A program made the translations under genes and the position numbers. The notes under the pieces are model-generated. The model was not told where the DNA came from, ran no database searches, and saw only the letters and a program-made list of their open reading frames with translations. Source: Baffinella frigidus (Eukaryota > Cryptophyceae > Cryptomonadales > Baffinellaceae). From it: a stretch of 37,552 bases of DNA. The DNA lies in the NCBI GenBank assembly GCA_026770585.1, contig MU646409.1, positions 579,486-617,037 of the forward strand, written 5' to 3'. Of the stretch, positions 23 through 37,552 are shown one piece after another (position 1 is the stretch's first letter; every line of letters starts with the position of its first letter).

Positions 23-181
23 CAGCGGGAGGGCAACGAGAGAGTTGAAGAGACCCTGAGAGAAGCCCTGCTCCCAGTTCTCTCCCGGGACCAGGCGCTT
101 GACGTCGAGGTAGTTGATGACACGGTGTCCCGCGGGCGTCACTGAGTTGTTCAGCACCTCGTGGAGCAGCTGCGCGTGCAC
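23..181 (-). CDS. Gene 1 exon 26: TIR domain (partial)
   Basis: GTGCTCGCAG|GTGCAC opens 53 codons: VHAQLLHEVLNNSV (alphaA), then HRVINYLDVKRLVPGENW (betaB and BB-loop, L-x(2)-G-x(2)-W), EQGFSQGLFNSLVALPL (alphaB/betaC). This is the FISYR...LD..L..G..W..GF..GL..S pattern of TIR domains. A likely donor CTG|GTACCC ends it at 23; otherwise it runs to the edge. The region where SARM1-type TIRs carry the NADase Glu lies outside, so catalysis cannot be judged. Confidence 0.85.
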
Positions 182-3100
182 CTGCGAGCACAGGGGGGGG
201 GGGAGCGTTAGAGAGAGCGCGAGCGAGCGGGCGAGAGAGACAGAGATAGAGAGAGAGAAAATGAGACAGCGAGAGCGAGAGCAAGAGAGAGAGAGCGAGT
301 GAGCGAGGGAGAGCGAGGACCTTCTCAGAAGAGACGCGGTATGACACGAAGGTGGAGTACGACTCTTCGCCAGTGTCGACGAGACACGTGTACAGCGCCG
401 TGGCAAACTCGTCCGCATTCTGCTCACCCCCCAACACCCCCCCGCACCTACCACGGTTACCTCGATCCAGAAGGGGGGTTATTCGCGCAGCAACGCATGT
501 GGGCATGTGGGCATGTGGGCACGCTCGCGTGGGATTGCGTGGTGGTCAGGGGCTTGGCGGGACGCGTAGTGCTCATTCGTGGGGAGTAGTGGTCAGGGGT
601 TGGCAAGCAAGCGTGTGATTGAGTAGTGGCGAGGGGTTGGCAGGCGACTCGTCTGGAAGCATCAAATGTTGGCAAGCACGCGTGTGTTTGAGGGGCTGAC
701 GGGACTCGCTCTCTCGCGCGCTCATGCTCTCGCTCTCTCACTCATTTTCTCTCACACACTCTCTCTCGCTCTGTATCTCTCTCGCGTGTCTCTTTCTGGC
801 GGGACGCGCCTGAAAGCGCTCATCGACGTGTTTCTTGAGGCCTCGCGCGATGACCCCCGCGAACGAACTGCTCAGGCCTGACCGCACCTGCCGAGGGGGA
901 GGCCGCAGCGTACGTGTCGTCAGAGGGAGAGAGGTTTACTGCCACTTGGGAAAATGCTTTCGATATGCCTTGTGTGCGGCCAGGCAACTTACCTTGTGTC
1001 GTCAGCACACTGCGGGGGTGGTTGGCAGGGCACGCAAGGGTAGCACCCAGGCTACGCTGGCAAGGCACGGGCGGTCGCGCGGCAGGGAGAGGTCTCTTCG
1101 TGCCTGGCAGTCAGCTCGTGACAGTTGGCACACGCCGTGTCAGCTGACAGGGGTGGCAGGGGGCTTGTGACCTCCAGGGGAGCCAGGGTGGGGTCGGCAC
1201 CACTTCCGGCGCAGGGGGGGCAGAGGGGGGGGGGCACACACCTCCGGCATGTGCGGCAGGGGTGGGTGGCTGGCAGGGGGGTTCGGCACCTGATGCACTC
1301 TGTCTGGCTGCCAGAGGGGGGGCACCTCCTCCTGGCTGCCTGGCTGGGGCTGCCTGGCTGTCTGCCTTGGTCACATCCGTCCAGTGTCTGGCTGGCAGTG
1401 GGGGCGCACCTCCGCTAGAGGGTGGCAGGGGGGGGGGGGGGCACCTCCTCGGGCGCAGCGTCGCGGACGTCGACGACAGGCACTTTGAGGTTCCCGGCAA
1501 TCGCTGCCCCCGCGGCCACCTGCCGATGTTCCCCGCCAGTCAGGAGGGGGGGGTCCGCTGTCGGCCCATTTCACCACAACAATAAAAACCAGGTCCGGAT
1601 TCTGGACCGTTGGAAGGGGGGTGATGGCCGAGCGCTGGCGGGAGGTGGACGCGGCGCTCGAGGCGCCAGGGTGGGAGCTGCGCGCACTGTCCCTCCCCAC
1701 GCCAACCAGCTACCTAGCCTGGTCCGCCCAGGGCAACACGTGGCGAGAGGGGGGGTGGGGGGGGAAGGGGCACCGTGTCCTTGATCCTGCCGAAGGGGGG
1801 ATCCCCGGCGACCATCTCGAAGAGCACGGCCGAAAGCGACCAGATGTCTACTGCAAACGATAGTGCTTGGTTCTCCATGAAGTTCTCCGGCGCAGCGTAC
1901 CTGGTGTGCGGTGTGGGGGTTGCGCTGTCAAGTCTGGGCTTCGGGCTTCGGGGTGTGGGTTTGGGGTTCGGGGTTTGGGGTGTGGGGGGTGGGGTGTGGG
2001 GTGTGGGGTGTGGGGTTTGGGATTTGGGGTTAAGGGTTGAGGGTTCCGGGTTTCGGATACGAGGTTGAGGTTGAGGGTGCGCGGGTTGCGTACGCGGGGG
2101 TGCCGTTGAAGTGGATCCTCTGGCCGGACATGAGCGTGGTTGCGGTGCCCCGGGAGCGGCCGGCCGTCGAATCGGCAAAGAGCGAGCGGTTGGAGTCAGC
2201 GTTGCTCTTCTTTTCGAAGCGCGCGGGCGTGTCGGCGGCGCGCGCGGTGCCTAGGTCGATCACCCGGTGTGTCCCGTCCCCCGCGCGGATGATGTTCCCA
2301 GGCTGCCAGGGACCAACACACGTTACCCTGCAAATACCTTCACCATACCAAACGCTCGACCCCCTAAGATAGCAATTTGCTGCGTTTTCAGCGAGCGGCG
2401 CACGTTTCCGTGAGCTGTTGATTGATCCCTCTGGTGGCGTGACTCAGCCATGCCAACCGTACACGGTCGTTGGGGTGCGAGAGAGGACACGATAGGAGGG
2501 CTCGGCCTCAAGACAAGCAAGATCGATACAGAAGACGGGGCGTTTTGAAGGATACAAGTCTGCATTCAGGCTTCCGGGGGATCCTGCCCGGTACCAAGAG
2601 CAAGATCATGCTCGGTCTCAAGCCATCGACCTGCTTAGTACACAACCTGCCCGATTTTTGACAGGCGGTGTCCTCTCCTCCACACCAAAACACTTGATCG
2701 CGGGTCCGCTCACGCGGTGTGGGGCTGAAGCAGATAGCCCTACAGTGGGCAATCCCCAGGGATCTAGGGATACCGGGTCCTACAGGAGCGATGCGTGGAC
2801 ATACCTTGAGGTCGCGATGGATGACACCGAGGTTGTGAATGGCCTTGACCGCCGAACACAGCTCCAGCATCACCTGCGCCCACATGTCATCCGTTCAAGC
2901 CTCGCTCAATCTCCCTATCTCTCTCTCACCATACCCGAACTCGCTACCTTGACATACACACAGGTTTCACGCATCAGGGTTCGATTCTGCTCTGCCCTAT
3001 GCTGTCTCTCTACCTTTGATGTCGCTCTACCACGTATGTCTCTCTACCTAGGTGCTATGTCCCTTGTACCGTCGGAACAGCCGAGCCAGCAAAAAAACGT

Positions 3101-6100
3101 CCCGCTCTCGTGAGGGGAGGCCATTCGCGGCCGTATTTCACCTCGGGCATGGACACACTCGAGGACATGTAGTTTCGGTAATTCACGCAATTAGCACTGG
3201 ACTCGCAGGTGCTTTCGACGTTGTACGGAAGCCCAGAATCCCAGACTGATGATGCTGGCGAAAGACCCGGTAGAGCAAGATAAACGAGAAAAGAGAAGCT
3301 CGCTACAGAAGAGACGGTGTTGGATGAGAGCGGCGGGGAGACCGGTGCGGCATTGGTCGGTTGGTCGCGTGGTTAGTGAGTCAGGGTCGCGGTCGGTGAC
3401 GGGGGGGGGGGTCCAGTTCGCAGCGGTGGCTGGCAGTTGGCGGGTGGCAGGCGGGAGAACCTGGATAGACTGGACTATGGTGACAAGACCGTGGCGGGAG
3501 AGAGGACCTGAATGGACTCGACTTGGGTGACAACGCCCACGCGGCGCAGCAGCTCCTCGAGCGTCTCGCCCGAGACCAACTCCATGGACATCCAGTAGAC
3601 GCGGCCGTCCGCCGAGAGGCCCGCCTCGTGGAAGTGCACCACGTTGGGGTGCTGGATGCGCCCCAACAGCGCGCTCTGCGCCACCGTGCGTGCCTCGTTC
3701 AGTGCTCCACCACCAACGTTGAGTGCTCCACCACCCCGTGACCCGCGCACCATGCGACCACGTGCACCATGCAGTGTGCCTCCACGTGCAGCACCCAGCA
3801 CCCGTCGCCGTGGTGATAGGCCCCACCACCACTACTGTCCCTCCCCACGCGAACCATACACCTACGTTGGTGAGCCCAGGGCAACAAACATGGCAACGCA
3901 GCTTGGGTAGGTGTGGATGCCCACGGGCAGGGTGGACCTGCCGAATTCCAGGTTGGAGTTGATTTGGTGCACGGAGCTCGCATCTGATGGGATGCCCTGG
4001 TGCACGTAGCTAGCTCTCACCTCTCACCTCTGGTAGCAAGCAGTGCTGTGTCAGGCTGTCTCAGACACCCCTATCTCGCCACGGCAGGCGCCGTCCGGCT
4101 CCCACACAGGCTTCAGCCTCAAGCCAAACACGCAAAATTATGCGTGCGTCCTAGATTATGCGTGCGTCCGAGGCCGTGCACCATCGGTCGCTGGTGTGGC
4201 CCGGTTAGGCGCATTGACATGTAGGTGGGTAGGGGGAAGTGAGGGTGGTCTCGGGGGTTCCGACCTCGCGCTGCATGCCCCTCAGCTCAACATCCGTGAA
4301 GCGGTAGCCCTTGTGGACCAGCTTCACGGCGCGGCGCGACGCAACCCCCCTGCTGTTCGCCACCAGCTTGTTGTCGCCGCCGCCACGCTGGCTTCTGTTG
4401 TTCTTGTTCTGCAAGATGTGCTCCTGGTAGATCTGGTGCACCTGCGCCCCCGCACATCGCCAAGTGCTTAAGTGGCCGAGTGCCTCCTCTAAGTGGCCAC
4501 CAATACCAAGGCAGTGCCCGGCAAGGCACGCCCTGCCCGCAGTGCCCGCCAAGTGGCCAAGCACGCACCCTGACATGGCCACGGCAGCTCCCGTTCCTGC
4601 GCCACCCCGCATGCCAGATTGTGTGCGAGCAAGTGAGTGCCGGCGGAGCTCGGTGGCTGGTTGGCATGCTGCCCGATAGCCATGGCCTCGGACGGACGGA
4701 CGGATTTTGGGGGCGCGACCCTCGCACGACGATGCCGGATGGAGAGAGAGTGTACGCGAGAGGGATAGAGAGCGAGCGCGCGAGCGCGCGAGCGAGCGAG
4801 CGAGAGAAAGAGAGAGGGGGGGGGGGGCGAGTACCTCGATGACAATGCCGCTGCCGCCGTGGCCAAGCAGCTGGACCGCGGTGTACTTGGCACGCAGCTC
4901 GTAGGGGAGATCGCGCTGGTTGGCAGACGTTCCCTTGTTAGCATGAAGCAGGCGCCTGCTCGCCTTGCGCCACCGGAAGTGGAGAACCGTCGCGAGCACC
5001 ACGAAGAGCACCATCAACCCCACGGTGATCCCCGCCGAGACCCCCACCACGGGGAACGGCGGCGGGAGGCTCGGGTCGACGACGATGGATGGCGTGTTCT
5101 TGATCTCGCCGGCCGGGATGCCATGGAGGATCAAGTTGGTGTTGACCTTGGCCTCATCGAGCCCGTCGATCATGGTCCGGGCGCCCGCCTCGTCGGGCGC
5201 GGCGATCATCGACACCACTTGCACCGACTCTGCGAGCAGTTCCCGCGCCCCCCCCTGCCGCCCGCCGCGGCGGGTCGTCTGGAAGAACTCAGAGATGATA
5301 ACGTTGACAGGAGTGGTGGCAGCCGCGGAAGCGAGCCCCGCCTTGAAGTCCTCCTGCTGGGAGGCGAAGGCCTCCTCGCTGAGCGGCAGCGACATCGACA
5401 GCGCCACGAACGCCACCTTCACGCAGTCCGACGCTGACGATGCGCCCCCCTTGGAATGGCTCGAGACCGGGCACGTCACCTCGCTCGCCGCTCCCCCCTC
5501 GCAGTAGCGGCCCGGGCCGCACTCGACACACGTCTGCTCATCATGTTGAGCTGGCACGAGGATCGCGTATCCTGGCGGGCAGTGGGTGAGCGTGTAGCGC
5601 CCCGTCTCCATGTCGGGCACCCACACCGAGGCGGCCCCGACCGTGCCCCACACGGAGCTGTTGTAGCAGTGCGCCCCCGCGGGGCAGTTCTCGCACTTGT
5701 GGTGATAGTTGCCCGGACCAGAATAGTTGGGGTCGAGAACGTAGGTGTCGGGCGGACACTGGTTGCAGACCCAGGTGGTGCTGCGAACGCTCCTGGCCTG
5801 TCCGGGGTCGCACCGGCACGCGACGGTGGTGTGCGTGCCGAGCGCGGGCGACGCCGTCCCCGCCAGCCCCGCGCGCACCACCACCGTGTCGCTCCCCAGC
5901 AGACACTCCACGAGAATGGAGGTGCTGCTCACTCCCGTCGCCGCGTCGAGCGCCTGGCTCACGGACGGAACAAGGCCCGCGGTCTCGCCGCAGGTTGTGC
6001 TGCCCGCCCCGCACAGCCAGAACCTGACACTCTGCCCCGAGCCGCGCACGTGCGAGCCGAGCTGGTCGTAGAGGAGCGCGGCGACGGAGAGGCGTTCGAA

Positions 6101-8508
6101 GCCGGGCGCCACGCTCTTGGGCACGGCACCATGCCACGCGATGCGCGACGCCTGGGTCGAGAGCCCGGTTCCATACAGCCCCGCGGTGTTGTCCTGCAGC
6201 TGCAACCAAGAAGCAGCCGGCGTCTGCAGCAACCCCTTGCACTCCGTGCTCAGCCCCGCACACGCCACATGCGCAGCCCCCCCCACCCCGCCCGCCCGGT
6301 TTCTCTGGAACAGCACTTGTTGATTCGGCGCGGCAAGTCCGTCGAGGAAGCAGCGCCGTCTCGAGAGGAGGCAGCCCTCTGAGTCTCGAAACACCGCCCC
6401 ACCATTCCCCGCCGTCGCCGTGTTGGCTGTGAACTTCAAGGCGGTTGCGTTTTTGACAAGGATCCTGGCTCCGGAGAGGAGCGCGGCCGCACCCCCGTCG
6501 ACGCCCGCAGAGTTGGCGTCGGCCGCAAGAGAGTGCCCGTTCTCCAGCACCACCAACGCGCCCTTTGCCACGAGCCCCCCCCCCTTGCCCGTCCTCGCTC
6601 GGTTGCCCTGGAGCATGGTGTGGCCACCAGCAGAGAGCGAGACGTCAGACAAGGTGAACACCGCGCCGCCATCGACTTCAGCGCTGTTGTCCCGCAAGGT
6701 GTTGGATCCAGCAAGAATCAGGCTGGTGTTTGTCCCAGCAAAGAGTGCCCCGCCACGCATGTTGACGAGGTTTTCGTGCACGTGGCTTTCGTGGCCGTCA
6801 TTGCCTCCGGCCACGTTGTGGTGAAACAAAGTGTCTTGCGAGGTGAGCTTGCTCCCCCAGAGCGACGCGACGCCCCCGCCGTCGCCGCCTGCAGAGTTTG
6901 CGTGCACCGCCGAAGCCTGGACTGTGCCCTCTGCCTTCTCCGTCAGGAGCATCCCTCCACCCGACCCCGCTGGCCCGGCCACGTTACCCTCCACGTTGGA
7001 GTTGTTGAGCACCACCACGGCCGCCCCGCTCACGAGAAATCCGCCGCCGCCACACATCGAGCCGCCGAACTCGCAGAAAAGGGTCTCGGCCAGGTTGTTG
7101 TTGACGGCGCAGCTCTCGAGGGTGGCGGTGGACTGGGAGAGGTGCAGGCCTCCTCCCACCTGGGCCACGTTCTCGACGACGCTCGCGGAGTGGCAGTCGA
7201 GCTTGCTGTCGGCGACGAGGTCGACGCCCCCGCCCTCGCGCGCCGCCTTGTTGCCGACGACGCTCGCGTTGAGGCTCATCTTGAGCGTGGATCGCGCCAG
7301 ACTGATCCCGCCGCCCGCCCGGCCGGCCGTGTTGCCGCGCACCTGGCTGCCCCCCTCGAGCTCGACGTGCGCGAGGTCCTCCGCGCGCACGCCCCCGCCC
7401 GACACGGCCGTGTTCCGCGTAATCATCCCCCCGGTCATTGTCAGCGTGGAGTCGATCGAGAGGTACACGCCGCCCCCATCCTCGAGAGCCCTGTTCCTGT
7501 CGACTACGGCCCGCGCGCCCAGGGTGGCGCTGCTCTCGGTCAGCAGCGACACGCCCCCCCCGAAGGTGGCGATGTTCTCGGAGCACGAGAAGTCGCCGGT
7601 CGTGTTGAGCTTGCTCCGAACCTGCCCGCCGCAAGAAAACAGCCAAAGCATCAGCGCGAATGCGAGCATGGGTGATTGGGATACATAGATAGAGATAGGA
7701 GAGACACACGAGAGCAAAGCGATGGAAGAGACACGTAAAACCGTCTAGGTGAGGCGAGGCGCCTGGAACCTCCGAGTGGGTTGCATGCAAGCGAGGCGCG
7801 ACAGTTTCCCCCCCTAGCCTCGACTTGGCTCGGGCGGCAGGCAACCAAGCCTCTGGACACTCAATGGACACTGGGGCGTCCCGTGGGGCAGGACGCCAAC
7901 AGCGCTGCACTGCGTGCGCGTGGCAGGGGAAGCACGGGGGTAGAGGCAGGAGAAGCACCTGGAGGTGGATGGCGCCGCCCCAGCTCTGCGCGCGGTTGCC
8001 GAACAGTTGGCAATTCCCCGACGAAGACACTGTCAACGACATCCCTGGGTGTGTGCATCCCAACCAGGTTTCAGTTGGAGACTGCGTGCAAGCGAGCGAG
8101 CGAGCGCCACGACTGCCCTGCATCCGCGCGCGCGCAACATAGGGAGGGAGGGGGCTGGGATAGAGAGAGAGAGATCAAGTGCACCGCACACAGGTGACCG
8201 GGGCACGAGAAACACTCAGGGCGGCGTCCATGCCGAGCTGAGTACCCCTCTCCAGCAAGACAGTTGGCAAGCTTCTGTGCTGCCGGGAGCCACTTCCGCG
8301 CATCACTTTTCCGCTGCCTTTCCACTATGTGAACAATCAACGATGGTGCCCCCCTACATGACCCAGCACAAGAACGTGTTGCGCGTGGTATCGTGCGTCA
8401 TCCATCACCAGGGGTGTCGCCCCGCCAGGGCTGCAATCATTCGGCGTCTTGCGTCCTGCCCCTTGAGGTTGGGGTTCGGGCAGATTGCACGCAAGGGGTG
8501 AGCCAGTT

Positions 8509-8550
<42 letters not shown>

Positions 8551-11500
8551 GGCTAACAAGCACGCTTGCGGCGGGAGGCTGGGCTAGCAAGGTAGCAAGG
8601 TAGCAAGCTTGCGGCAGGAGGGCTAGCAAGCAAGGTTACTGCCCCAGTTACCGACAGGCAGCCAGCCAGCCAGCCAGGCCTCGGGAGACACCGACGCCGT
8701 GTGTGTGTTTGTGTGTGTGTGTGTGTGCGTGAGAGAGAGAGAGAGAGAGAGAGAGAGATACCGAAGGCGCCGAAGATGCCGCCGCCGCTTGTCAAGGCTT
8801 CGTTCGCTGAAATCACGAGCGACGACTCCACCACCACTCTGTCAACACCAACACCCAACCCCGACACTGTTACCAATCACGTCACACTCTCAACACTGTT
8901 ACCAACCAACCCACAGCCCCGACACTGGCCCATGCCCAACAATCTTGTGTCCACACCAACGCAGCTAACCACCCAACACGGTTACCCCCAGCCCCAACAC
9001 GGTTGACACATCCGGACACCATTTGTACCTGGACGATGACTGAACTGGGAAAGCTCGGTTAAGTCAAAATTTATGGGCCTCTGAAAGAAATAGCATCCGT
9101 CATGGCTGGCAGGGCACATATCCAAAGCAAGCTTTGCTCCGCCGCACCTCGCTGCTGCCTCTCATTACAACGCCGAACAGTCTTGCGCATTCAGGGTTGA
9201 GCATTTACTTGGCGTCCGACGATGTACGTTGGTGAGAGGGTGAGAAGGGGTGTGGGGCGAGAGAAGTGCAGGCGTGTCAGGGTGTGTTGGGCAACAGAGT
9301 GTGTGGGGCACGACACGTTCTGCCGTCAATGGGTATGCAGCAATGGACGTGCTGCCGGCAACAGACATCAGGTGGGGGGGGGGGGGCGACACGCGGGGGG
9401 CGGCCTCGAGACGTGGTGCCGTCAAGGGTTGTGGGGGAAACGACGTGAGGGGTGGGGGGGGGCTCGAGACGTGGTGCCGTCGAGATAGAGGCCAGCGCCC
9501 TCCCAGCCATTGTTGGAGAAGACACTGAGCATTCCTTGTTTGATCTCCACGACAGAGCCGCCACCTGATTGCACCCCCCCCCCTGCACGGCCCCTGCACC
9601 GTCAGAGCTGTGCCAAGGTACCAACGCCTGCACGACCCCTGAAGCGTAAGGTGTGCAGAATGCAGAATCTGAAACGGAGCGGCTAACCAGACACCCTGCG
9701 AACGAGGCTGGCGGAGGGTGTCTGGCGCGGCTGACCACACAACCTGCGAGGCTGCTGGTGCTGCTGCAGGAGCAGGAGGAGGCAGAAGCCTGCGAGCGTG
9801 CCAGGGTGCCCGTTGACCAACGCCACCAAACCACACTCCCATGCGCCCGTTGTGTGCATGCACACTCCATCTGCAAGTCACGACAATCGCACCTCGATCA
9901 AAGCGAGGAGCCCTAAACCCTGAACCTAAAACCCTGCACCCTGCACCCCAAACCCTGAACCCTAAAGCCTGAACCCTAAAGCCTGAGGTGATGGTGCTGA
10001 GTTGCAAGTCTCGGCACGGCTTAGGCGGAAGCAACGCGGGTAGGTACGGACTACGCAACGTTGGTAGGTAGGTGGGGAGAGCAGCATGCAACGCGGGTAG
10101 GTAGGTAGGTAGGTAGGTGGGTAGGTAGGTCGGTAGGTACGGGGGGGGGGGGCATGTGGCGTTTGGAGACCTGCGCCGTTGGCGACGTTGCCAGAAATGG
10201 TGGCGTTGCTGGTCACCGTCTGCCACAACAAACCATTTGTCATTCCGAGCGTCATCACTCACCTCCAAACCGAAACACCGCACGCCCGCCATCTTTCTCA
10301 AGTACCGCAATCGAATTTGCCTGCCCAGACCTTTTGACCTCACTCCGATGCTCGAGTCCAGAGAAGTGCTTGCCGGGACACCGGCATGCTCTGACGTATC
10401 CGAACGTGCACCACTGAACCTTGCAGGTGAAAGGTTCTGAGGCCACGCGTCCTCTGCATCGAGCCACGCTTCGGCAGCCTCGCACACAGGCTGTCTCAAC
10501 AGCCATCTCGCACAGCCTCGCACACAGGCCCTCTCGCGCTTGCGTGTTTCACCATTCGGGCGCCGCACTCACCATCGTGGATCCTTCCAGCGAAATGCCC
10601 CCCCCCCCCCCTCCAAAGACTGCATCGCCCGCGGTGTTGTCCATAATTTTGGACTCCCCTCCAGCGAACTCGACAGTGGAGAACTTGGCGAAGATGCCGC
10701 CCCCAGATGCCGCAGTGTTGGATGAGACACCCGAGCCTTCGATCCGCATCACGATCTGATCACCGACACCACACCATTCAGAGTGAACTCATCGCAGCGC
10801 AGAGCGTCAAACCAGGCCAACGCCTCACATTGCCACGCCTCACAAGTCGCGTCTCTTTCTACCCTCGACCGGGAGGGTCGGCCACAGAGAAATCGCGAGA
10901 CACGAGTCTTCTCCCGGCCAGGTGAATTGGCGTGCGCCTACAGGCTACAGGGGTAAATCGGCGCTCACCCGTCTGGAGGGGGGGGGGCAACCCTCCTAAG
11001 GGGGGGGGGGCTGAAGGAAGCGCGGGCACGGTGGGCGGCAGCAAGTTGGGAGAGCTCTCTCGCGTGACATGGCGCAACCAGGTACCAATCTCGACTCCTC
11101 TCTCATCCGAGAGGGTTCGCGACACCCAGTCCAACCAAGTCACGTGCCCTCACCTTATTCGGCATCTCAAAGCTTATGTCCTCGATGTACACCCCCCCCC
11201 CCTCTTGGCGCGCAGTGTTTCCTACGACGGACGTGCCTCCGGACATCAGGATTGAGGTGCGTTCGACCATGATGCCCCCCCCCCTCTCCGAGGCCGTGTT
11301 GTTGGCGATCTGCGTCACCGCGCCAGGTCACGCCCATCAGTCACATTTCCTCGCACACTCGTTTGCGTGTTTAGATGCCTTATCGTGGTGCATATGGAGT
11401 TTTTAGATGGCTTATCGTGGTACTGATTCTTAACATTTCGCCAGCAAAGAGCTGCAATTCGAAACAATTTTGGCGTATTTCCCGGGTGGGAGTGCCTCCG

Positions 11501-12946
11501 ATGGGTGTGTCACCCTGGTAACCGAGTTGGCCACGCACACGCATGCAACCCAACGTCCTGTCACGCACCAGGCAATCAATACCCTGTATGTGGCAGGTTG
11601 CGGGTAGAGCGTTGAGGGTTTCGGGGGTCGAGTGCGGGGTCTGGGTGCCCCGCTCTTCTCTAGAAAGAAGGGAGAAGGGAGGATAAAGACCAAGACATTG
11701 TCGAACTGCACTTGTGTTGGAAGTCCCGAAAACGCGACGGCTCCTCCGAAGTGGGCCTCATTTTCGATGAACGAGCAGTTGCGAAACTGCGGGCAATGCA
11801 TCGCGATCAGGAAGCCGGTTTCCCGCCGTCAGTCGCGCCAAGCCAACCACGAACATCAGTCGCGCCAGGCCAACCACGGACAACCAACACCGAAGCAAAC
11901 ACGTAGCTGGCCGTGGCCTCCAAGTGGTGGGTGGTGGCACTGAAATCACGGTTGGTAAGACATGGCTCAAATCACGGCAAATCACGGGTGGCAAGAGGTG
12001 GCTCACCACGAGTGACCTTTCACGCCAGAAAGACGCGAAGACGTCGATCTTGATAGCCCCCCCCCAGTGAGCAACGTTCCTGCGGAAGATGGGCTGGTAC
12101 CGGTACCGGTGGGGCATGTCAGAGGGTGCGTTTTCCCAAAGTTGACAAGGACACACATGTTGACAGTTGACGTGAGGAGCGCGCACGTGTGAGGTCGACC
12201 GCCAGGAGGCATCACACTTGAGCCATTCACGGCAACGCCGACTGAAGATTGAACCGATGATGGAGGCATCGCAGTGGGTTTCGACGCACGCGATTGGAGC
12301 TACGTGTTTGGAGCAAGAATCGGAGCGGGGGCGCACCCCGTCAGCTATCGTCATGAAGAAGATGCCGAAGATGAACATGCCCGCGCCTCCGTTTCCCCCA
12401 AACGAACTCTGCGGTTTGAATGCCACGATCAGTGTGCTGCATGCCAGGGCAAAGCCGAGTTGGGATAGTGCTGCAGGTGGACATGTGTGGGTGTGCAAAG
12501 GCACAAGTCTCGGAACATAACTGCATCAAGTCCGATTAAATAAAAACGCAGATTTAGGGTGATTGAGTTGAGTTGTGAGATGAGTTCGGGCGGAGGGCAT
12601 TCCGGGCTTGGGTTCCGGATGGCGCGACGGAGGGTGCTTGCTCGCCCACTTGCACGCGAGGGCCAGGGCTCTGCGCGACTGCTCATTAGGGCCGCCCAGT
12701 ACCAGGACCTAGGACCTCAACTAGGACCGAGCAAGGAGCAACAACGGCGGTGTGGGAGGGGGGCTGTTACGAAGCGATTGACGGCGCGATTGCCCTCGAA
12801 GATTACGTTGCCGGTCATTGAGAGACTTACTTGCATGAACAAGAATACCTGCCACAGGTTGGTAAGCGATGACGTTTTGTCTCAAGGCTGTGGCTGTCAC
12901 CAGGCAGGGGGGCGATCTCGAGAGAGATGGCGAGGGGGGGGCAGAC

Positions 12947-12982
<36 letters not shown>

Positions 12983-15900
12983 CGCGCGCGCGCGCGCGCG
13001 CGCGCGCGAAGGAGGAGAGGGAGCGCGGGAGGTACCGCGCCGCCGATAGTAGAGGCCTCGTTGTTCTCAAACCTCACTCCATCTTTCACCGTCAAGGACC
13101 CCCCAGAGGACATCCGAATCTGCAACCCCCGAAGGAACATCAAAACACATCGCACCCTGCAACAGAGCATCACACCATGTCTCACCCTGCAACCTCTAAG
13201 GCGCCATGCTTCTGGCCAACTTGACGTCACTCTCGCCACCCCAATTCCGTTCGCACGCATACTTGAACCCAGCCCAGGGCTTTCACCTACCTCAACACCG
13301 CATAGTCGTGGTTGGAGTGTATATGCGTGTTTTCCCGTTTTCACCCCAGATGCAGCCGAGGCCACGAGCCGCCGCAAAGCAGGGTGAGTGTATCCATGTC
13401 GCAAAGCAGGGAGGGTGCATGCATGTCGCTGTCGCGGTCTCCACTGGGACGTGTGCCTGTCTTTTCCCGGAACGTGTGGCTACCCTGGCATAGTGAATGC
13501 TAGGTACGCTCGTCGCGCAGGGGCGGGTCTCGTCCCAACCAACCAACACGCCAAACCAGGGGCATGGATACAGGCACCAGGGAGTGCGCGACTCCGTGAC
13601 ATGCAACACTGCTGGATGCTTCCATGCATCCAGCGGCAGGCCACACCGGCATGTTGCAAAGACTGTGTCGGACTAGCGGTACACACCAGTGTGTCCGCCA
13701 CGGTCCTCCACGCTTCAGATGTTCGTGTTTCTGGTACAACCCTTGTACAAAATGAGGAGAATCAAGTGTAGGCATACCAGGTGGTGTGCAGGGGCGTGGA
13801 TGGTGTGGACTCTGTCCCTCGGGGCCCCGGGCGGGGAACATACCCCCCCCCCGAACTCCACTGCCTCATTGTTCTTGAAGAGCACGCCGTTGCGCAGAGT
13901 GACCCTCACGCCTCCCGATGACCCCAACTGCCACCCCAGAGGGGATTGAGTGGCGTGTCGCCTGATTCGGCGACTGGCACCTGCTGGCGGCACAGTCGCT
14001 GGCACGTGGTGGCACCAACGTTGCAACCGGCGCCACGTTGCAACGACTGCCCCGTAGCGCCTCGAGGAGTGGAATGTGGCGGGTGGCGAACCCCGCGAAT
14101 GTGGCGGGGCGGGTGGCGAACCCCGGCAGGTGCGCGAGCGAGACCTTGCGAGGCGAGAGGCCAGGCGGGGTGCCAACACCTTGCCCTACCGCCCTCATCA
14201 ACTACCGAATGTAGGCGTGTGCAGGTTCGATGTGGCTGATGTGCAAGAAGGGGGTTGTTTGGGGGCGCGGGCGGGTGGGTACCCCTCCTCCAAAGATGGC
14301 GCCACGGTTCCCGTCGATCACCACCCCTCCTGTCAGCTCCACACTGCCCACAACCACCATTCAGGCACCGACTCCACACCACACACTCCGCGGAATGTGC
14401 ACGCCGTGTATGCTAGCTACGGCACGCGTGAGGTGCGGTAGCTACGGCAAGTGTGGGGAGGTGGTGTGGTACAGGTGGGTCTTGCCGTGCTGCGCGCAGG
14501 TTGCAACCACCCACCACCCTCAGCATGAATGGCACACACAAAGCAGAGCATGCCTGGCAAACACCAGCCTGGCGGGACCGGACTGGAGGGGTTGTTTCGA
14601 TGGAAGGGTGGAACAGGCTCCCCGATTCGGCTGTGGGGAGCATGAACCTTCCTGACGAATACGCGTGGATTCCTCCTCCATATCTCGCAAGGCAGCGCGA
14701 GATCAACGTTGGGCCGTCGATGCGAAGAGTGGTGCTCGCCACGGAGATGCCCCCCCCAACGGATTTGAGAGACTGATCGATTGGGAGCACGTTGCAGTCG
14801 ACAAACTTGGAGTGTCCGAGGATCGTGACCACGGCTCCGGCGTTGGCGCAGATGCCTCCCCCGCCTGCCAGGGCAACCCAGGGTAGTGAGCGATGCGCAC
14901 CCCAGGGCCCAGCCTGGTCACCAGAAGCCGCCGCCGCCTGGCAGACAGGGGGCACCCTAGGATGGGCAGCGATGAGCATCCGCGGAGAGCATGGGCGTCA
15001 AGAGGTGGTGCGGCCCCGGCGTCCCGCGTGCGTGTTTCATTGCTTGGATCGCTGCCAGGCCCCCGCACGTGCCGCGAGCAACCAGCAGCAGCCTGCACGC
15101 CACGCTCCATCCAACACGGATACATCATACGCAAAAAAATGACTGCTGGAACAGACATCGTCCAGGAATGTTGTGTGTGGGAGGTTTGTGGATGTCGTCC
15201 AGGAATGTTGTTGGTTGCGCTATCAACCGGGGGACTATCAACCAGGGGGCGGGGCAAGAGGGCTTGGGGAGAGCGGAGATCGGTGGACGAGTCTGGTTTC
15301 CAACGCGGGAACGAGGCCTAGGTGGTGGTACCTTTGCCCTCTGAGTAGTGAGACGGCGTGAGGACGTTGTTGGAAGTGAACGTCGAGTCTCTCACCGTCA
15401 GAGAAAGGGGCCCTGTCACAGTCACCCCGCCGCCGAGCTCGCTAGCAGTGTTGTTGGTGAAATGCGAACGATCGATCGAAATGGTGCCCCCGGCGCCCTC
15501 AAAGTGCATCCCTCCCCCCGAAAAAGAGGCGGCATTCTCCGTCGAGGACGTAGCCTCTACCTCCACCGAGTAACTGCTACCCGCTGCGTGGATGCCCGCG
15601 CCCTCCACTGCCACATTGCCAGTCAGGTTGCAACCGCGCACGGTGAGAGCCTCCCCCCGAAAAGAAATGGCCCCACCCGACGCGGCAGCCCTGCAGTTGG
15701 AAAACACGCTGTCCGACACCACCAGCGCGGACGACGTCCCCGCAACGAGCACGCAGCCTCCGTTGCTGCTGTACCCCCCCGTGAGAGTCAGCCCCTCGAT
15801 CCGCACGCTGGCGTTGTTGCTGACATGGAAGTGCCGGCCCGCCCCCCCGCAGTCGATGACAGTCGCAGCTGCCCCTTCTCTTCCGAGAAGAGTGACGTTC

Positions 15901-16231
15901 TCCGCCAGCGCAACCCCGCCAGGCGAGCAGCCCCCATATCGCCCAGGTTCAAAAACCACAGAGTCCCCAGGCGCCGCCGATCCGATTTTATCCGCCCACG
16001 AATCGGTCAGGGCAACCTGCACCCGAGCAAGGCCTCAGCGTCACATCAACATGTCCACCCCATCCTATTCCTCAATTTTCCCATTCTCGGTGGAAGCGAG
16101 TGGTCCCCAGAGGATGAAAGGATAGAGGGCAGCACCTGGACCTCGGCGGCTCCTGCGAGCGCCAGCACCAGAGGCAGGAGCAGAAGGGCTCGCCTCCATT
16201 GTACAGCCTCTGACGCACCCCGGCGCCGCAT
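23..16231 (-). CDS. Receptor-like protein: beta-helix repeats + Cys-rich + TM + protein kinase + TIR (26 exons, 3' end outside window)
   Basis: Joining 26 exons gives at least 2051 codons with every phase matching. Order by residue: signal peptide 1-29; repeats with GGG/GGA-I/V motifs about 45-1240; cysteine-rich module about 1337-1470; juxtamembrane alpha/beta domain about 1471-1585; transmembrane helix 1594-1617; kinase 1648-1975; TIR from about 1984 to the window edge. Type I topology would put repeats outside the cell and kinase and TIR in the cytosol. Kinase landmarks: G-loop GHGGSG, VAIK-type Lys 1704, alphaC Glu 1723, HRD Asp 1800, DLG Asp 1818, APE Glu 1877. Exons: 16231-16136, 16016-15332, 14864-14648, 14343-14283, 13927-13844, 13119-13036, 12848-12771, 12408-12337, 12093-12007, 11786-11691, 11309-11154, 10755-10573, 10219-10171, 9564-9471, 8838-8762, 8044-7959, 7621-4835, 4441-4265, 3675-3508, 2873-2805, 2302-2094, 1900-1774, 1519-1445, 887-810, 419-321, 181-23. 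Domain calls come from motifs seen; the signalling role is inferred. Confidence 0.88.
189..305. repeat. (GA)n-rich microsatellite in gene 1 intron 25
   Basis: A G run then imperfect GAGA repeats, (CT)n on the sense strand of gene 1, filling most of the 139-bp intron. Similar tracts fill other gene 1 introns at 4738-4826 and 8729-8758. The tract at 700-800 has the opposite polarity. Confidence 0.9.
321..419 (-). CDS. Gene 1 exon 25: end of kinase, start of TIR domain
   Basis: 33 codons (GTGAGCAG|AATGCG ... GAGAAG|GTCCTC). NADEFATALYTCL is the last kinase helix. After a short linker, YSTFVSYRVSSEK is the first TIR strand and AA loop (compare the FISYR consensus). There is almost no spacer between the two domains. 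Confidence 0.84.
810..887 (-). CDS. Gene 1 exon 24: kinase subdomain XI
   Basis: 26 codons (CCTCGGCAG|GTGCGG ... TTTCAG|GCGCGT). SSFAGVIARGLKKHVDERFQ holds the conserved Arg of the C-lobe. No GT donor keeps the frame with exon 25; a GC donor directly after CAG gives DERFQ-NADEFATAL, the normal end of such kinases, so a GC-AG intron is inferred. Confidence 0.78.
1445..1519 (-). CDS. Gene 1 exon 23: kinase alphaG region
   Basis: 25 codons (TCGGCAG|GTGGCC ... GAGGAG|GTGCCC) encoding AAIAGNLKVPVVDVRDAAPEE, which follows PPFGRIKDT without a gap in kinase alignments. The neighbouring intron sequence is C-rich on the sense strand, so several long proline-rich frames here are artefacts. Confidence 0.8.
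1774..1900 (-). CDS. Gene 1 exon 22: kinase APE motif and alphaF helix
   Basis: 127 bp (CACCAG|GTACGC ... GACACG|GTGCCC). YAAPENF supplies the APE motif; FAVDIWSLSAVLFEMVAGDPPF is alphaF with the invariant Asp and the usual PPF turn. Phase 2 in and phase 0 out. Confidence 0.9.
1920..2072 (+). repeat. TTTAGGG/GTGGGG-like degenerate array in gene 1 intron 21
   Basis: Variants of GGTTTGGGGTT and GGGTGTGGGG, ending with TTAAGGGTTGAGGGTTCCGGG. Same family as the larger spacer arrays. A short reverse-orientation tract (CCCTAAA/CCCTGAA) is at 9912-9985 in intron 13. Confidence 0.75.
2094..2302 (-). CDS. Gene 1 exon 21: Mg-binding motif and activation segment
   Basis: 69 codons plus 2 bases (CTGGCAG|CCTGGG ... 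CCCGC|GTACGC). RVIDLGTAR carries DLG instead of DFG. The activation segment is long and Ser/Thr-rich (KKSNADSNRSLFADSTAGRS and TATTLMSG), then FNGTPAY of the P+1 loop, so regulation by phosphorylation is plausible. The intron is enriched in G and T and contains a short TTTAGGG-like tract. Confidence 0.9.
2805..2873 (-). CDS. Gene 1 exon 20: kinase catalytic loop
   Basis: 23 codons (GGGCGCAG|GTGATG ... CTCAAG|GTATGT) ending VKAIHNLGVIHRDLK, with catalytic Asp (1800) and catalytic-loop Lys intact. Joined to exon 21 it reads HRDLK-PGNI, the Ser/Thr-type catalytic loop. Confidence 0.92.
3444..3535. repeat. Tandem duplication across the exon 19 donor
   Basis: Segments 3490-3535 and 3444-3487 are adjacent diverged copies of about 45 bp. 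Both carry a CAG|GT donor-like site on the minus strand. The second copy is intronic and out of frame. Confidence 0.7.
3508..3675 (-). CDS. Gene 1 exon 19: kinase hinge region
   Basis: 56 codons (GTGGCGCAG|AGCGCG ... ATTCAG|GTCCTC). ALLGRIQHPNVVHFHEAG is the alphaC-beta4 segment; VYWMSMELVSGETLEELL is beta5, hinge (MEL) and alphaD. The donor is placed so that the alphaE helix has its normal length when joined to exon 20 (TQVESIQ-VMLELC). A diverged tandem copy of the junction lies just inside the intron. Confidence 0.86.
4265..4441 (-). CDS. Gene 1 exon 18: kinase N-lobe with catalytic Lys and alphaC helix
   Basis: 59 codons (GGGCGCAG|GTGCAC ... GCGAG|GTCGGA). RAVKLVHKG holds the ATP-anchoring Lys (residue 1704); ELRGMQRE ends with the alphaC Glu (1723), which lies on the exon boundary. 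About 25 residues rich in Asn, Gln and Gly precede the Lys strand, an insertion longer than usual between beta2 and beta3. Confidence 0.88.
4835..7621 (-). CDS. Gene 1 exon 17: repeats, Cys-rich module, juxtamembrane domain, TM helix and kinase G-loop
   Basis: A single uninterrupted exon of 929 codons (GGGCAG|GTTCGG ... ATCGAG|GTACTC), residues 736-1664. It carries about 15 GG-motif repeats (for example FGGGVSL, DGGGVYL, EGGGVDL, DGGAVFT, NGGAVFRD). A repeat-free stretch follows, then a module with about 13 cysteines: CRCDPG, CNQCPPDTY, CENCPAGAHC, CPPGY, CVECGPGRYC. This spacing resembles GCC2/GCC3 or ephrin-receptor-like repeats. Residues 1471-1585 look like the SEA-like juxtamembrane domain of algal surface proteins, with no obvious self-cleavage motif. 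TM: VGVSAGITVGLMVLFVVL onward, then the stop-transfer RWRKASRR. It ends at the kinase glycine loop LLGHGGSGIVIE. The ATG near 7717 lies in intron sequence and is not the start. Confidence 0.92.
7959..8044 (-). CDS. Gene 1 exon 16: one beta-helix repeat
   Basis: 86 bp (CACCCAG|GGATGT ... CTCCAG|GTGCTT), phase 1 in and phase 0 out, containing LTVSSSGNCQLFGNRAQSW and GGAIHLQ, which runs directly into VRSKLNTTGDF of exon 17. Confidence 0.86.
8505..8758. repeat. Microsatellites (CCAG)n, (GT)n and (GA)n in gene 1 intron 15
   Basis: About 11 CCAG units near 8505-8549, then another short CCAG run near 8660, (GT)n at 8699-8727 and (GA)n at 8730-8758, ending at the exon 15 donor. Confidence 0.9.
8762..8838 (-). 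CDS. Gene 1 exon 15: one beta-helix repeat
   Basis: 77 bp (GTTGACAG|AGTGG ... TTCG|GTATCT), phase 2 in and phase 1 out, containing VVVESSLVISANEALTSGGG and IFGAF. The intron begins immediately with (CT)n and then (AC)n on the sense strand. Confidence 0.83.
9405..9481. repeat. Duplicated 19-bp splice-junction sequence
   Basis: The 19 bases at 9463-9481, which span the donor of gene 1 exon 14, recur exactly at 9405-9423 inside the following intron. Confidence 0.85.
9471..9564 (-). CDS. Gene 1 exon 14: one beta-helix repeat
   Basis: 94 bp (AATCAG|GTGGCG ... ACCAC|GTCTCG), phase 1 in and phase 2 out, with VVEIKQGMLSVFSNNGWEGAGLYLDGT. A second copy of the 19 bases spanning the donor lies 58 bp further into the intron. 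Only the first copy keeps the frame open. Confidence 0.8.
10080..10152. repeat. (GTAG)n tract and G run in gene 1 intron 13
   Basis: GTAG units at about 10095-10139 followed by a run of 12 G. Related GGTAG-rich segments lie just upstream (10038-10080). No coding signal. Confidence 0.85.
10171..10219 (-). CDS. Gene 1 exon 13: half-repeat
   Basis: 49 bp (GTGGCAG|ACGGTG ... GGCGCAG|GTCTCC), entry phase 0 and exit phase 1, encoding TVTSNATISGNVANGA plus a split Gly codon. It continues the repeat from exon 12 and completes its glycine motif with exon 14. Confidence 0.82.
10573..10755 (-). CDS. Gene 1 exon 12: two beta-helix repeats
   Basis: 61 codons (GATCAG|ATCGTG ... ACGATG|GTGAGT) with VSSNTAASGGGIFA and IMDNTAGDAVFGGG. 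An extended G run makes the second motif six glycines long, so length errors in the homopolymer are possible. Confidence 0.86.
11154..11309 (-). CDS. Gene 1 exon 11: two beta-helix repeats
   Basis: 52 codons (GACGCAG|ATCGCC ... AATAAG|GTGAGG) with IANNTASERGGGIMV and VVGNTARQEGGGVYI, two full repeats with N-x-T sequons. Phase 0 at both ends. Confidence 0.87.
11691..11786 (-). CDS. Gene 1 exon 10: one beta-helix repeat, phase 0-0
   Basis: 32 codons (CCCGCAG|TTTCGC ... GTCTTG|GTCTTT) containing FRNCSFIENEAHFGGAVAFS, a textbook repeat. Joined to exon 11 it reads FDNVL-IANNTASERGGG. Confidence 0.85.
12007..12093 (-). CDS. Gene 1 exon 9: one beta-helix repeat, phase 0-0
   Basis: 29 codons (GTACCAG|CCCATC ... 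CTCGTG|GTGAGC) containing IFRRNVAHWGGAIKIDVF. A weaker donor lies 9 bases earlier (GAAAG|GTCACT), but GTGAGC keeps phase with exon 10. Confidence 0.82.
12337..12408 (-). CDS. Gene 1 exon 8: short hydrophobic repeat exon
   Basis: 24 codons (ACCGCAG|AGTTCG ... GACGGG|GTGCGC) containing FGGNGGAGMFIFG and FFMTIADG. The GGAG-M motif and correct 0-0 phase support it, though strand composition is unusually aromatic. Confidence 0.72.
12771..12848 (-). CDS. Gene 1 exon 7: one beta-helix repeat, phase 0-0
   Basis: 26 codons (GTGGCAG|GTATTC ... CGCTTC|GTAACA) containing VSLSMTGNVIFEGNRAV. Joined to exon 6 it restores the consensus GGA-VFL. The donor is ordinary but unconfirmed. Confidence 0.8.
12948..13010. 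repeat. (GA)n then (CG)n tract in gene 1 intron 6
   Basis: Adjacent (GA)n and alternating (CG)n of about 30 bases; the CG part is a Z-DNA-prone alternating purine-pyrimidine run. Confidence 0.9.
13036..13119 (-). CDS. Gene 1 exon 6: one beta-helix repeat, phase 0-0
   Basis: A 28-codon exon (GTTGCAG|ATTCGG ... GGCGCG|GTACCT) containing SLTVKDGVRFENNEASTIGGA. Same length and register as exon 5. The intron after it carries (CG)n and (CT)n on the sense strand. Confidence 0.86.
13844..13927 (-). CDS. Gene 1 exon 5: one beta-helix repeat, phase 0-0
   Basis: A 28-codon exon (GTGGCAG|TTGGGG ... GGGGGG|GTATGT) containing VRVTLRNGVLFKNNEAVEF and ending in GGG. The strand-turn-FKNNEA-FGGG pattern is the canonical POMP repeat. 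Confidence 0.86.
14283..14343 (-). CDS. Gene 1 exon 4: single beta-helix half-repeat
   Basis: A 61-bp exon (GTGGGCAG|T ... GGAGGG|GTACCC), entry phase 2 and exit phase 0. It encodes VELTGGVVIDGNRGAIFGGG and ends exactly on the GGG motif. It has no start codon of its own and is recognised by repeat consensus and phase. Confidence 0.83.
14648..14864 (-). CDS. Gene 1 exon 3: beta-helix repeats
   Basis: Acceptor CTGGCAG|GCGGGG (phase 1 entry) and donor GGAAG|GTTCAT (phase 2 exit). It encodes residues 261-332 with repeats GGGGICA, VGGGISV and YGGGIHA, each followed by short hydrophobic beta strands such as VVTILGHSKF and TTLRIDG. Confidence 0.85.
15332..16016 (-). CDS. Gene 1 exon 2: N-terminal cap and first beta-helix repeats
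   Basis: The acceptor TGCAG|GTTGCC is followed by 228 codons. The start (DSVVFEPGRYGGCS, then ENVTLLG and ATVIDCGG) is the usual cap of a right-handed beta-helix, seen before repeats in POMP and pectate-lyase-like folds. Repeats follow with SGGAISF, EGAGIHA, SGGGMHF and LGGGVTV, each with an N-x-(S/T) or F(S/T)NN stretch, so the surface is probably N-glycosylated. The donor AAAG|GTACCA leaves phase 1. The frame runs on a few codons into the intron before a stop. Confidence 0.87.
16136..16231 (-). CDS. Gene 1 exon 1: start codon and signal peptide
   Basis: ATG at 16231 opens 32 codons beginning MRRRGASEAVQWRR, then a hydrophobic core ALLLLPLVLALAG and a likely cleavage site after AGA or GAA. 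The frame is open further upstream (an ATG near 16420), but that would bury the signal peptide behind a basic leader, so the inner start is preferred. The donor CAG|GTGCTG joins in phase 0 to exon 2, giving AEVQ-VALTDSW. Confidence 0.85.
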
Positions 16232-18152: not shown

Positions 18153-18481
18153 ATTGTACTTTTCGGGTCAGCGCGGATTTTGGGTCGGGGTCGGGGATCG
18201 GGAAAAATCGAAAATATCGAAAAAGGGCTCTAGTATTTGTGACATATTATGGGTGGGGGGTGCATCTTGTCATCATATCAATGCATAAGATAGCATAAAA
18301 TCAAAAATATCGAAAAAGGGCTCTAGTATTTGTGACATATTATGGGTGGGGGGTGCATCTTGTCATCATATCAATGCATAAGATAGCATAAAACTTTAGA
18401 TGGACGCACCAATTATCGAGATTTTCGTTTCCCGACACCCCGACCCGACCTCGAGAAAATCCGCGCTGACCCGAAAAGTAC
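18153..18481. mobile_element. Foldback element with two 93-bp internal direct repeats
   Basis: The terminal inverted repeat TTGTACTTTTCGGGTCAGCG (18153 on) is matched in reverse complement near 18455-18481 and continues into GGATTTT and CGGGTCGGGG. The interior holds two apparently identical 93-bp units at about 18211-18303 and 18304-18393. ACCTAAAGGA motifs flank both sides. Confidence 0.75.
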
Positions 18482-19273: not shown

Positions 19274-19390
19274 CTGGAGAGCTAAATGCGATCCGAAAGC
19301 AAAAATGCTTTCTCTGCAGATCCCTTCTACGGAACGGCGTGTCGTTGGCATATGTTGGGAGCATTTAAAACCTAAAGGACCTAAAGGATC
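19274..19390 (+). repeat. Dispersed palindrome-bearing repeat, copy 1
   Basis: Core GATCCGAAAGCAAAAATGCT then TTCTCTGCAG, containing a GAAAGCA-TGCTTTC hairpin, ending in TTAAAACCTAAAGGACC. Other copies: 21400-21510 (+), 20636-20700 (-, partial), 25372-25470 (-), 26172-26292 (-), 26309-26423 (-). Confidence 0.85.
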
Positions 19391-20600: not shown

Positions 20601-20938
20601 AACTGACCCCCGAATCCTAAACCCTGAACCCTCCTTTAGGTCCTTTAGGTTTTAATTTCGCCCAACATATACCAACGCCACGCCCTTCCGTACTTAACAA
20701 GGCACCAGGTGAGGGATGGAGGAGACGGGAGGGGACAAAGGGGGGGAGAAGGAAGTAGAGGAAGGGGGGGCGGAGGAGGGAGGAGCGGAGGAGTGGAGAA
20801 AAAGAGGAGGGGAGGGTAGATGAGCAACAGAGATACATAAACGCTGAGCGGGGTATGGCGAGCGACAAGAGCCTTATTGAAAAGGCGGGGGTGCATTGCT
20901 GACTCGTGTTTTCCTCAAGTGACCCAGATGACTTCCAC

Positions 20939-21235: not shown

Positions 21236-21510
21236 GTGGGGTATCCGTGGTTGGAGATCTTATGCTCCAACCATGGGATACCATGAGCCTCATTAAGGCT
21301 GACTTGGGTTCGGTGTGTGTGTGAGCATGGGAACCAGTTGGTATACCTTCACTCACCCCAAGAGGACCACCCTTTATCCCCTCTACACGAGCATCTGCAC
21401 TGGAGAGCTAAACGCGATCCGAAAGCAAAAATGCTTTCTCTGCAGTCCTTTCTACGGAAGGGCGTGGCGTTGGCATATGTTGGGCGAAATTAAAACCTCA
21501 AGGACTTCAA
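21236..21510 (+). repeat. Longer repeat unit containing palindrome repeat copy 2
   Basis: Block 21236-21325 (GGGGTATCCGTGGTTGGAG ... ACTTGGGTTCGGTG) followed by the core at 21400-21510. The same two blocks recur in inverted orientation at 25620-25372, so the unit is about 250-275 bp. Confidence 0.75.
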
Positions 21511-21522
21511 CGACGTACGTCC

Positions 21523-21965: not shown

Positions 21966-22370
21966 ATTTGAACTGGGTTTGAGATTTAGGGTTTAGGGTT
22001 CAGGGTTTGAAGTCTGCGGTTGAGGGTTCAGCGTCAGGGTTGAGGATTCAGGGTTTGAGGTTTATGGTTTTGAGTTGAGAGTTTCAGGGTTTAAGGTTTG
22101 GGGTTTAGGGTTCAGGATTGAGGGTTGAGGGTTGAGGGTCTAGGGTTCAGTGTTGAGGGTTGATGGTTGAGAGTTGATGGTTGGGGGTCGAGGGTTGAGG
22201 GTTGAGGTTTAGAGTTGAAGGTTTAGGGTTTCGGGATTCGGGTTGAGCGTTTTTGCTTGAAAGTTTAGGGTTTAGTGTTCAGGGTGAATGGTTTAGGGTT
22301 CAGGATTTGGGGTTTAGGGTTCAAGGTGTTGGGCCTGGGGTTCAGGGTGCAGGGTTTCTAAACCTTTACA
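21966..22370 (+). repeat. Degenerate telomere-like array 1
   Basis: About 400 bp of variants of GGTTTAGGGTTCAGGGTTGA. The 7-base unit is recognisable as TTTAGGG but is heavily mutated. Confidence 0.9.
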
Positions 22371-22374
22371 AAGG

Positions 22375-22756
22375 GTTTAGTTATCCCCTTCGGGTCCTTC
22401 TGGTCTGGTCTCTTCTTGTGTGTAGTGCCGGCGGCAGGGCCTTGGGCTTGGTACCCCACCGTCCCTTTCGGTGGGGGTTGTTGGTATCCTTCTTTGTGAG
22501 CCTCGGTCGGACAGGTGACGAGCCTCGCGTCCGACCGAGGCTCACACTCTTTGTACCCCTTTGACGGAAGTATGGACATGCAGGGGCATGTTTAAGTAAA
22601 ATAAGTACGACGTATCGGTGCTGTCCTTGTTCCTGAACCCCTATGGGTTCTCAGGCTCGAGCCCAACACAGCCCCTGGCACCCTTCGTACTCCCTGGTGA
22701 AGCTTGACGCTGTCGCGCCTTCATGTTCGTTCAATAAAGAGCTTTTTCTTTTCTTT
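22375..22756. other. Unique 380-bp segment between telomere-like arrays, with a second hairpin element
   Basis: Contains 22495-22546, a 52-bp hairpin with the same TGTGAGCCTCGGTCGGACAG end as the 18873 element but more symmetrical. Also a GC-rich hairpin at 22455-22477 and TTCAATAAAGAGC then a T-rich tract near 22728-22758, like a retroposed 3' end. No exon recognised. Confidence 0.5.
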
Positions 22757-24888: not shown

Positions 24889-25075
24889 TTTTAGGTTTCA
24901 GGGTTTCGGGTTTCGGGTTAAGGGTGTAGGATTCAGGGTTCAGGGTTCAGGGGTTAGGGTACAGGGTTTAGGATTTATGGTTTATGGTTTACGGTTTACG
25001 GTTTATGGTTCAGGGTTTATGGTTTTAGTGTTTAGGGGTTGGGGCACAAGTTTAGGGTTCAGGGCATGTTAAACA
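24889..25075 (+). repeat. Degenerate telomere-like array 3
   Basis: Continuation of array 2 beyond the inserted element: TTTAGG, TTCAGGG and TTTATGGTTTACGG variants. Confidence 0.88.
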
Positions 25076-26171: not shown

Positions 26172-26423
26172 GTCCTTCAGTCCTTGAGGTTTTAATTTCT
26201 TCCAACTTGGCCCAACGACACGCTATTCCGTAGAAAGGATCTCCAGAAGAAGAATTTTTGATTTCGGATCACACGTGGCTCTCCAGTGCAGAGGCGCGTG
26301 GGTCCTTCAGGTCCTTCAGGTTTTAATTTCTCCTAACATGGCCCAACGACACGCCCTTCCGTAGAAAGGATCTGCAGAGAAAGCATTTTTGCTTTCGGAT
26401 CGCATTTAGCTCTCCAGTGCAGA
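26172..26423 (-). repeat. Two head-to-tail copies of the palindrome-bearing repeat
   Basis: Copies at 26172-26292 and 26309-26423, both reading GGTTTTAATTTCT(T/C)C, then CCGTAGAAAGGATCT and the hairpin core, ending GCTCTCCAGTGCAGAGGC. The first is more diverged. Confidence 0.85.
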
Positions 26424-37539: not shown

Positions 37540-37552
37540 GTCCCCCCCCTCT

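Follow-up and report, generated by a model that had tools for sequence, protein, structure and literature searches.

A Baffinella frigidus gene predicted to encode a one-chain receptor with beta-helix repeats, a protein kinase and a TIR domain

Gene model and domain order of the receptor gene

The stretch of DNA analyzed here, hereafter the window, comprises 37,552 nucleotides of the cryptophyte Baffinella frigidus (contig MU646409.1, C107:579486-617037), and the genome that was searched together with it amounts to 382 Mb in 1,364 contigs. On its minus strand, running from position 16231 to position 23, lies a gene for a predicted receptor, here called the receptor gene, whose 26 exons were joined by hand in phase to give 2035 codons with no stops. 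A first-pass annotation had proposed 26 in-phase exons over the same interval with a product of 2051 residues; since the exons were chosen by hand, small shifts of their borders are possible, and the difference between the two products gives the margin. The 25 introns are 125 to 724 bases long. All 25 acceptors are CAG, and the donors are GT in 24 cases and GC in the remaining one (intron 24). The third-position GC of the joined exons was 0.814, compared to an overall GC of 0.612 in the introns, and the other two frames of the joined exons contained 57 and 25 stops. The coding character of these exons is clear.

Both edges of the window are assembly gaps, with 4,153 N to the left of position 1 and 8,205 N to the right of position 37552. 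The first exon occupies 16231..16142 and the last one 181..23, and position 23 is likely a splice donor ahead of the left gap and not the end of the gene. Because the window ends at this gap, the second half of the TIR domain and the stop codon of the receptor gene are missing. Two exons connect the domains without any inference from splicing: exon 17 alone runs in one open frame from the repeats through the transmembrane (TM) helix to the glycine loop of the kinase, and exon 25 alone joins the end of the kinase to the start of the TIR domain in one open frame. The proposal that a single gene encodes PMP-type repeats outside, one TM helix, a complete kinase and then a TIR domain was supported, and the coordinates of these features are given in Table 1.

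The product begins with a probable signal peptide, as previously annotated. By pattern, we counted 34 repeat units of the GG[GA] type, in agreement with the earlier estimate of about 30 or more, and 27 of the 33 spacings between them were 26 to 36 residues. When residues 1-727 were compared with Pfam, Chlam_PMP (PF02415) scored 28.3 bits (cut-off, 20.6) and NosD scored 27.3 bits (cut-off, 23.6), both scores being sums of weak stretches, and in exon 17 the NCBIfam POMP repeat (TIGR01376) scored 17.1 bits (cut-off, 15); in the PF02415 and TIGR01376 matches, no single stretch alone passes the E-value limit. No Pfam family matched residues 728-1583 at E 0.1. At the same limit, there was no leucine-rich repeat (LRR) match on residues 1-727 or 728-1583 and no autotransporter beta-barrel match in three pieces spanning residues 1-2035. 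Judging from the repeats and from low-confidence models, the ectodomain may form an extended right-handed beta-helix with some 34 rungs. The proteins that the repeat model matched in structure include the adhesins PfbA and SRRP, and many of them are glycan-handling or adhesive proteins. The Cys-rich stretch that precedes the TM helix had been labelled GCC2/GCC3-like. The Pfam family PF07699, which we take to be GCC2/GCC3, gave no match at E 0.1 or at E 10, although HMMER filters may mask weak matches in the E 10 search, and the label was dropped.

Hydropathy gave a sole TM-like peak besides the signal peptide (2.6, versus 1.7 for the next peak), which lies ahead of the kinase and confirms the single TM helix first annotated. 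The kinase is complete, as had also been claimed: spliced pieces matched Pfam Pkinase (PF00069) at 113 bits (cut-off, 31.7; E 2.1e-32), and the catalytic residues K1696, E1715, D1784 (HRD), D1802 (DLG) and E1861 (APE) are all present. The kinase is apparently active and of the Ser/Thr type, and its closest match in the PDB is the bacterial PknE.

Table 1. Positions in the window of the receptor gene and its predicted features
Feature	Position	Strand	Basis or remark
Receptor gene, assembled part	23..16231	-	26 exons, 2035 codons; 3' end open
Exon 1, probable signal peptide (30 residues)	16142..16231	-	start codon choice inferred
Repeat region of 34 units (GG[GA] type), residues 87-1200 in exons 2-17	6203..15848	-	pattern and profile matches
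Exon 17, 929 codons: last repeats, Cys-rich and juxtamembrane stretches, TM helix, kinase glycine loop	4835..7621	-	
Cys-rich stretch, residues 1328-1467	5402..5821	-	no Pfam family at cut-off
TM helix, residues 1585-1607	4982..5050	-	hydropathy
Protein kinase domain, exons 17-25, residues about 1640-1963	378..4885	-	Pfam and catalytic residues
Exon 25, kinase end and first TIR strand	321..419	-	single open frame
Putative TIR first half, exons 25-26, residues 1968-2035; remainder expected in the left-hand N gap	23..365	-	

The TIR domain and its relatives

The putative TIR sequence carries FVSYR in exon 25 and YLDVKRLVPGENWEQGFSQGL in exon 26, and its match to TIR_2 (PF13676) is confined to the profile's first half. 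Raw, unspliced frames matched TIR_2 in Pfam only at E 0.14, and PADLOC returned only its SAVED-TIR model (E 0.035 and 0.042). A PDB search with the single TIR fragment found no TIR, the best match being another protein at E 0.066. A profile built from four TIRs of the family was compared with the PDB up to E 10, and the sole chains that it matched were 3ozi ("L6tr") and 7vu8, both TIR structures of flax rust resistance proteins.

Relatives were found in the same genome. All six scored candidates matched; two of them were the receptor gene itself, and the rest were C202 (two exons), C73 and C240. C202 is a diverged second gene with the same order of repeats, neck, TM helix, kinase and TIR, and its TIR is complete and traceable across several exons to IYPILIG. 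Compared to the receptor gene, C202 was 36% identical over 634 columns (E 1.7e-85), 40% identical over 295 columns of the repeats, 70% identical over the 23-residue HRD exon, 51% identical in a 51-residue piece at the APE motif, and 69-78% identical in three TIR pieces, which were the best-conserved parts among the segments compared. The introns adjoining the QRE, HRD and PxNI motifs occupy matching positions in the two genes. The proportions of synonymous (pS) and nonsynonymous (pN) differences were 0.66 and 0.11 for the three TIR segments and 0.63 and 0.24 for all seven segments, which were picked for alignability and in which synonymous sites are near saturation. We regard the domain order as real, and the second gene conserves it. 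C73 (776148-776294 and flanks) has a kinase-like end followed by a TIR that can be traced to IFPVIVG; the reading frame of the exon that holds this kinase-like end seems to be broken. The TIR of C240 passes the PF01582 cut-off (22.3 bits; cut-off, 21.3) and falls below that of PF13676 (22.9 of 28 bits). A Glu was found at the place expected for a TIR NADase, presumably the catalytic position as placed from L6 and SARM1, in DNVAKEL of C202 and in DNVLLEL or DNVLLEW of C73 and C240.

In C240 (107934-108134 and flanks), the TIR exon had no match to the kinase of the receptor gene within 1.5 kb, which perhaps indicates another TIR architecture in this genome. Among 18 scored candidates, a query running from the neck to the glycine loop picked out the receptor gene, C202 (42%) and, weakly, a third locus at C834; by that test, the receptor family is small. 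Twenty regions around some of the 108 kinase matches listed for the genome were compared by tblastn, and they showed no kinase match at 1e-4 and no TIR match better than E 0.89.

Outside the genome, the kinase piece matched 26 records in a phage collection and 408 in a plasmid collection. Among the 20 phage and 40 plasmid matches listed, some extend beyond the kinase into the beginning of the TIR: the phage matches reach up to query residue 437 of 475, the TIR starting at about 408, and the plasmid matches up to query residue 377 of 401, the TIR starting at about 333. No TIR was detected beside phage, plasmid or bacterial kinases in the six loci examined (four by Pfam at E 0.1 and two by eye). 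Bacterial and archaeal genome contigs yielded two relatives, both of them kinases, and viral contigs yielded four pattern matches and no relative. The TIR fragment matched three plasmid records at E 3-5, the first of which resembles a TIR start in a frame that holds a stop; nothing is drawn from it.

Several results weigh against reading this gene as a beta-helix receptor with both a kinase and a TIR domain. Short pieces of the putative TIR scored only 17.7 and 18.5 bits with TIR_2 (cut-off, 28; E 0.005 and 0.003), a longer piece containing kinase plus TIR gave no TIR in Pfam at E 0.1, and NCBIfam found no TIR in the receptor gene. With 19.9 and 20.3 bits, the TIRs of C202 and C73 likewise fall short of the 28 bits set for TIR_2, the PDB matches of the family profile are weak (E 0.13 and 0.45) and extend over profile positions 8-80 only, and the stretch of the receptor gene that is expected to hold the catalytic Glu falls in the gap, so that this residue is seen in the relatives only. 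The intron behind the glycine loop of the receptor gene is absent from C202, the TIR introns of the two genes are placed differently, and the glycine loop of the C202 kinase is degenerate (ASGAHR). The fold models were of low confidence (pLDDT 35, for an uninformative model of the whole of exon 17, and 53), and Foldseek gave 0 matches at E 0.001.

The first-pass annotation had placed a TIR domain in exons 25-26 and had set a score below threshold on these exons as its own refuting condition, and to the letter this is the result that the two short pieces gave. We do not count this as a refutation, since the assembly gap cuts the domain and its relatives elsewhere in the genome point to a TIR, although two of them also score below the TIR_2 cut-off; the 4,153-base N run is probably the reason why the receptor TIR is below the Pfam cut-off. 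When these modest lines of evidence are combined with the TIR-like order of the motifs, a TIR domain is the only reading that we found plausible.

Repeats and other frames in the window

Long, contig-internal arrays of degenerate TTTAGGG-like and GGGTTCA-like heptamers are located at window positions 21975-22377, 22762-23578 and 24852-25064, and similar heptamer runs occur in introns of the receptor gene (about 9911-9986) and of C202. TTTAGGG-like arrays in DNA that is rich in introns and in GC would fit a protist or an alga. A repeat some 60-130 bases long, perhaps a mobile element, is scattered over both strands at 19274-19388, 20632-20692, 21377-21519, 25367-25495 and 26172-26440, once as a tandem pair with a 131-base period. 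At 18204-18389, a 93-base unit is present in two head-to-tail copies that are 99% identical. An open frame at 26874-27281 (+) has a hydrophobic stretch near its start, as in secreted proteins. Neither this frame nor seven others in the right-hand part of the window, which are 110-342 residues long, matched a Pfam family at E 0.01.

Known receptors, alternatives and a possible mechanism

We consider it reasonably probable that the gene encodes a type I surface receptor consisting of a signal peptide, a beta-helix, a Cys-rich neck, one TM helix, a kinase and a C-terminal TIR domain, with the probable mechanism outlined below. The best reading is that such a receptor is Toll-like in its logic, with the beta-helix replacing LRRs. 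In a choanoflagellate study (eLife 2018, PMC6040629), "Kinase TLRs" are uncharacterised proteins that have LRRs, a TM helix, Pkinase and TIR in this order, are restricted to choanoflagellates within the data set of that paper, and are proposed as a component of a streamlined pathway. They resemble the receptor gene in their type I layout and in the inside order from TM helix to kinase to TIR (PMC6040629). The kinase lies between the TM helix and the TIR domain in the receptor gene and also in C202, and the gap hides whatever follows the TIR in the receptor gene. The ectodomain of the Kinase TLRs is built of LRRs, whereas that of the receptor gene is built of PMP-type repeats, and because the LRR feature is absent the receptor is not a Kinase TLR as defined in PMC6040629. 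It may well function in the same way. The earlier statement that no characterised receptor of this order is known needs correction in that the TM-kinase-TIR order had already been described there, in uncharacterised proteins with LRRs outside.

Animal Toll-like receptors (TLRs) with MyD88 and IRAK likewise combine a repeat-built ectodomain, one TM helix, a cytosolic TIR and a pathway kinase, according to PMC6040629. The animal TLRs have LRRs instead of PMP-type repeats, and their kinase is a separate protein, whereas here it is built into the receptor. With chlamydial PMP/POMP repeats, the receptor gene has in common the GG[GA][IVLMF] plus FxxN repeat, mostly of 26-36 residues and over curated cut-offs; it differs from chlamydial PMPs in its TM helix anchor, in the kinase and TIR after that anchor, and in being an intron-rich eukaryotic gene. 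PMP/POMP repeats are linked to autotransporters, but the C-terminal beta-barrel of bacterial autotransporters was not found in the pieces searched, and a TM helix, kinase and TIR follow the repeats instead. The flax rust resistance proteins, matched by the family TIR profile, are cytosolic NLRs. Plant receptor-like kinases have an ectodomain, one TM helix and a cytosolic kinase, and that family is not known to carry a TIR domain. A 2026 preprint (PMC13142454) describes TIR_2 as a broad marker of TIRs and names six TIR clades that are wholly eukaryotic and lack a characterised member. No protein combining PMP repeats, a kinase and a TIR was found among the titles and abstract openings listed from open-licence PubMed Central, and one may still exist in print.

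A receptor of the same anatomy could instead serve cell-cell recognition, in mating, self-recognition or surface adhesion, with the TIR as a mere assembly scaffold. The adhesins that the repeat model matched in structure, the 14 N-glycosylation sequons in residues 31-1580 and the small family by the neck-TM query (receptor gene, C202 and a weak third) favor this explanation, since pathogen receptors might show a large expansion. However, the TIR pieces, the best conserved of the segments compared between the two genes, and the Glu kept in relatives suit an active or strictly constrained domain, and we regard this alternative as possible but rather unlikely. It is far less probable that the gene is a decaying pseudogene, as the C73 frame break in its kinase-end exon and the degenerate C202 glycine loop might suggest, given the 2035 stop-free codons over 26 exons, the third-position GC bias and the low pN/pS.

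Hand-chosen exon borders, a gene model made from sequence alone and the adjoining gap would each be compatible with an artefact in which two or three adjacent genes are read as one, or with a misassembly. This is very hard to reconcile with exons 17 and 25, each of which crosses a domain border in one open frame, and with C202, whose domains follow one another in the same order, whose segments are 36-78% identical to those of the receptor gene and which shares the introns around QRE, HRD and PxNI. A bacterial gene or contamination, to which the chlamydia-like repeats, the PknE match and the wide matching of bacterial Pkn-type kinases might point, is similarly improbable: the gene has 25 introns with GT/GC-CAG borders on a contig of 847,623 bases, and the six bacterial or phage kinase matches examined lacked a TIR (four by Pfam and two by eye). 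Ancient transfer of single domains may have occurred.

Returning to the surface receptor with built-in kinase, we infer its role in innate recognition, along with its surface location, ligand class, clustering, kinase action and TIR output, from its parts. The beta-helix would bind a surface polysaccharide or another particle-bound ligand, a ligand class suggested by the many glycan-handling or adhesive proteins among the structural matches. Ligand binding would cluster receptors, and the clustered kinases would phosphorylate either one another or the TIR. Once packed together, the TIR domains would signal by NAD+ cleavage or by recruiting TIR partners. One chain would in this way provide what animal TLRs assemble from TLR, MyD88 and IRAK, and in a unicellular host the output could serve in defence, in the handling of symbionts or in prey recognition. 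The more specific proposal of a Toll-like receptor with a built-in kinase that originated independently of the Kinase TLRs, reads polysaccharides through its beta-helix and cleaves NAD+ with its TIR on clustering is offered tentatively and is in our view doubtful as a whole; if true, a unicellular eukaryote would have an entire pattern-recognition pathway in one chain.

The receptor gene indicates that the inside unit of TM helix, kinase and TIR is not bound to LRR ectodomains, and this unit may have arisen more than once. The receptor described here would be a compact test case for a question raised by PMC6040629: whether one chain with both a kinase and a TIR takes the place of a multiprotein relay, and whether surface TIR receptors serve unicellular eukaryotes in sensing microbes.
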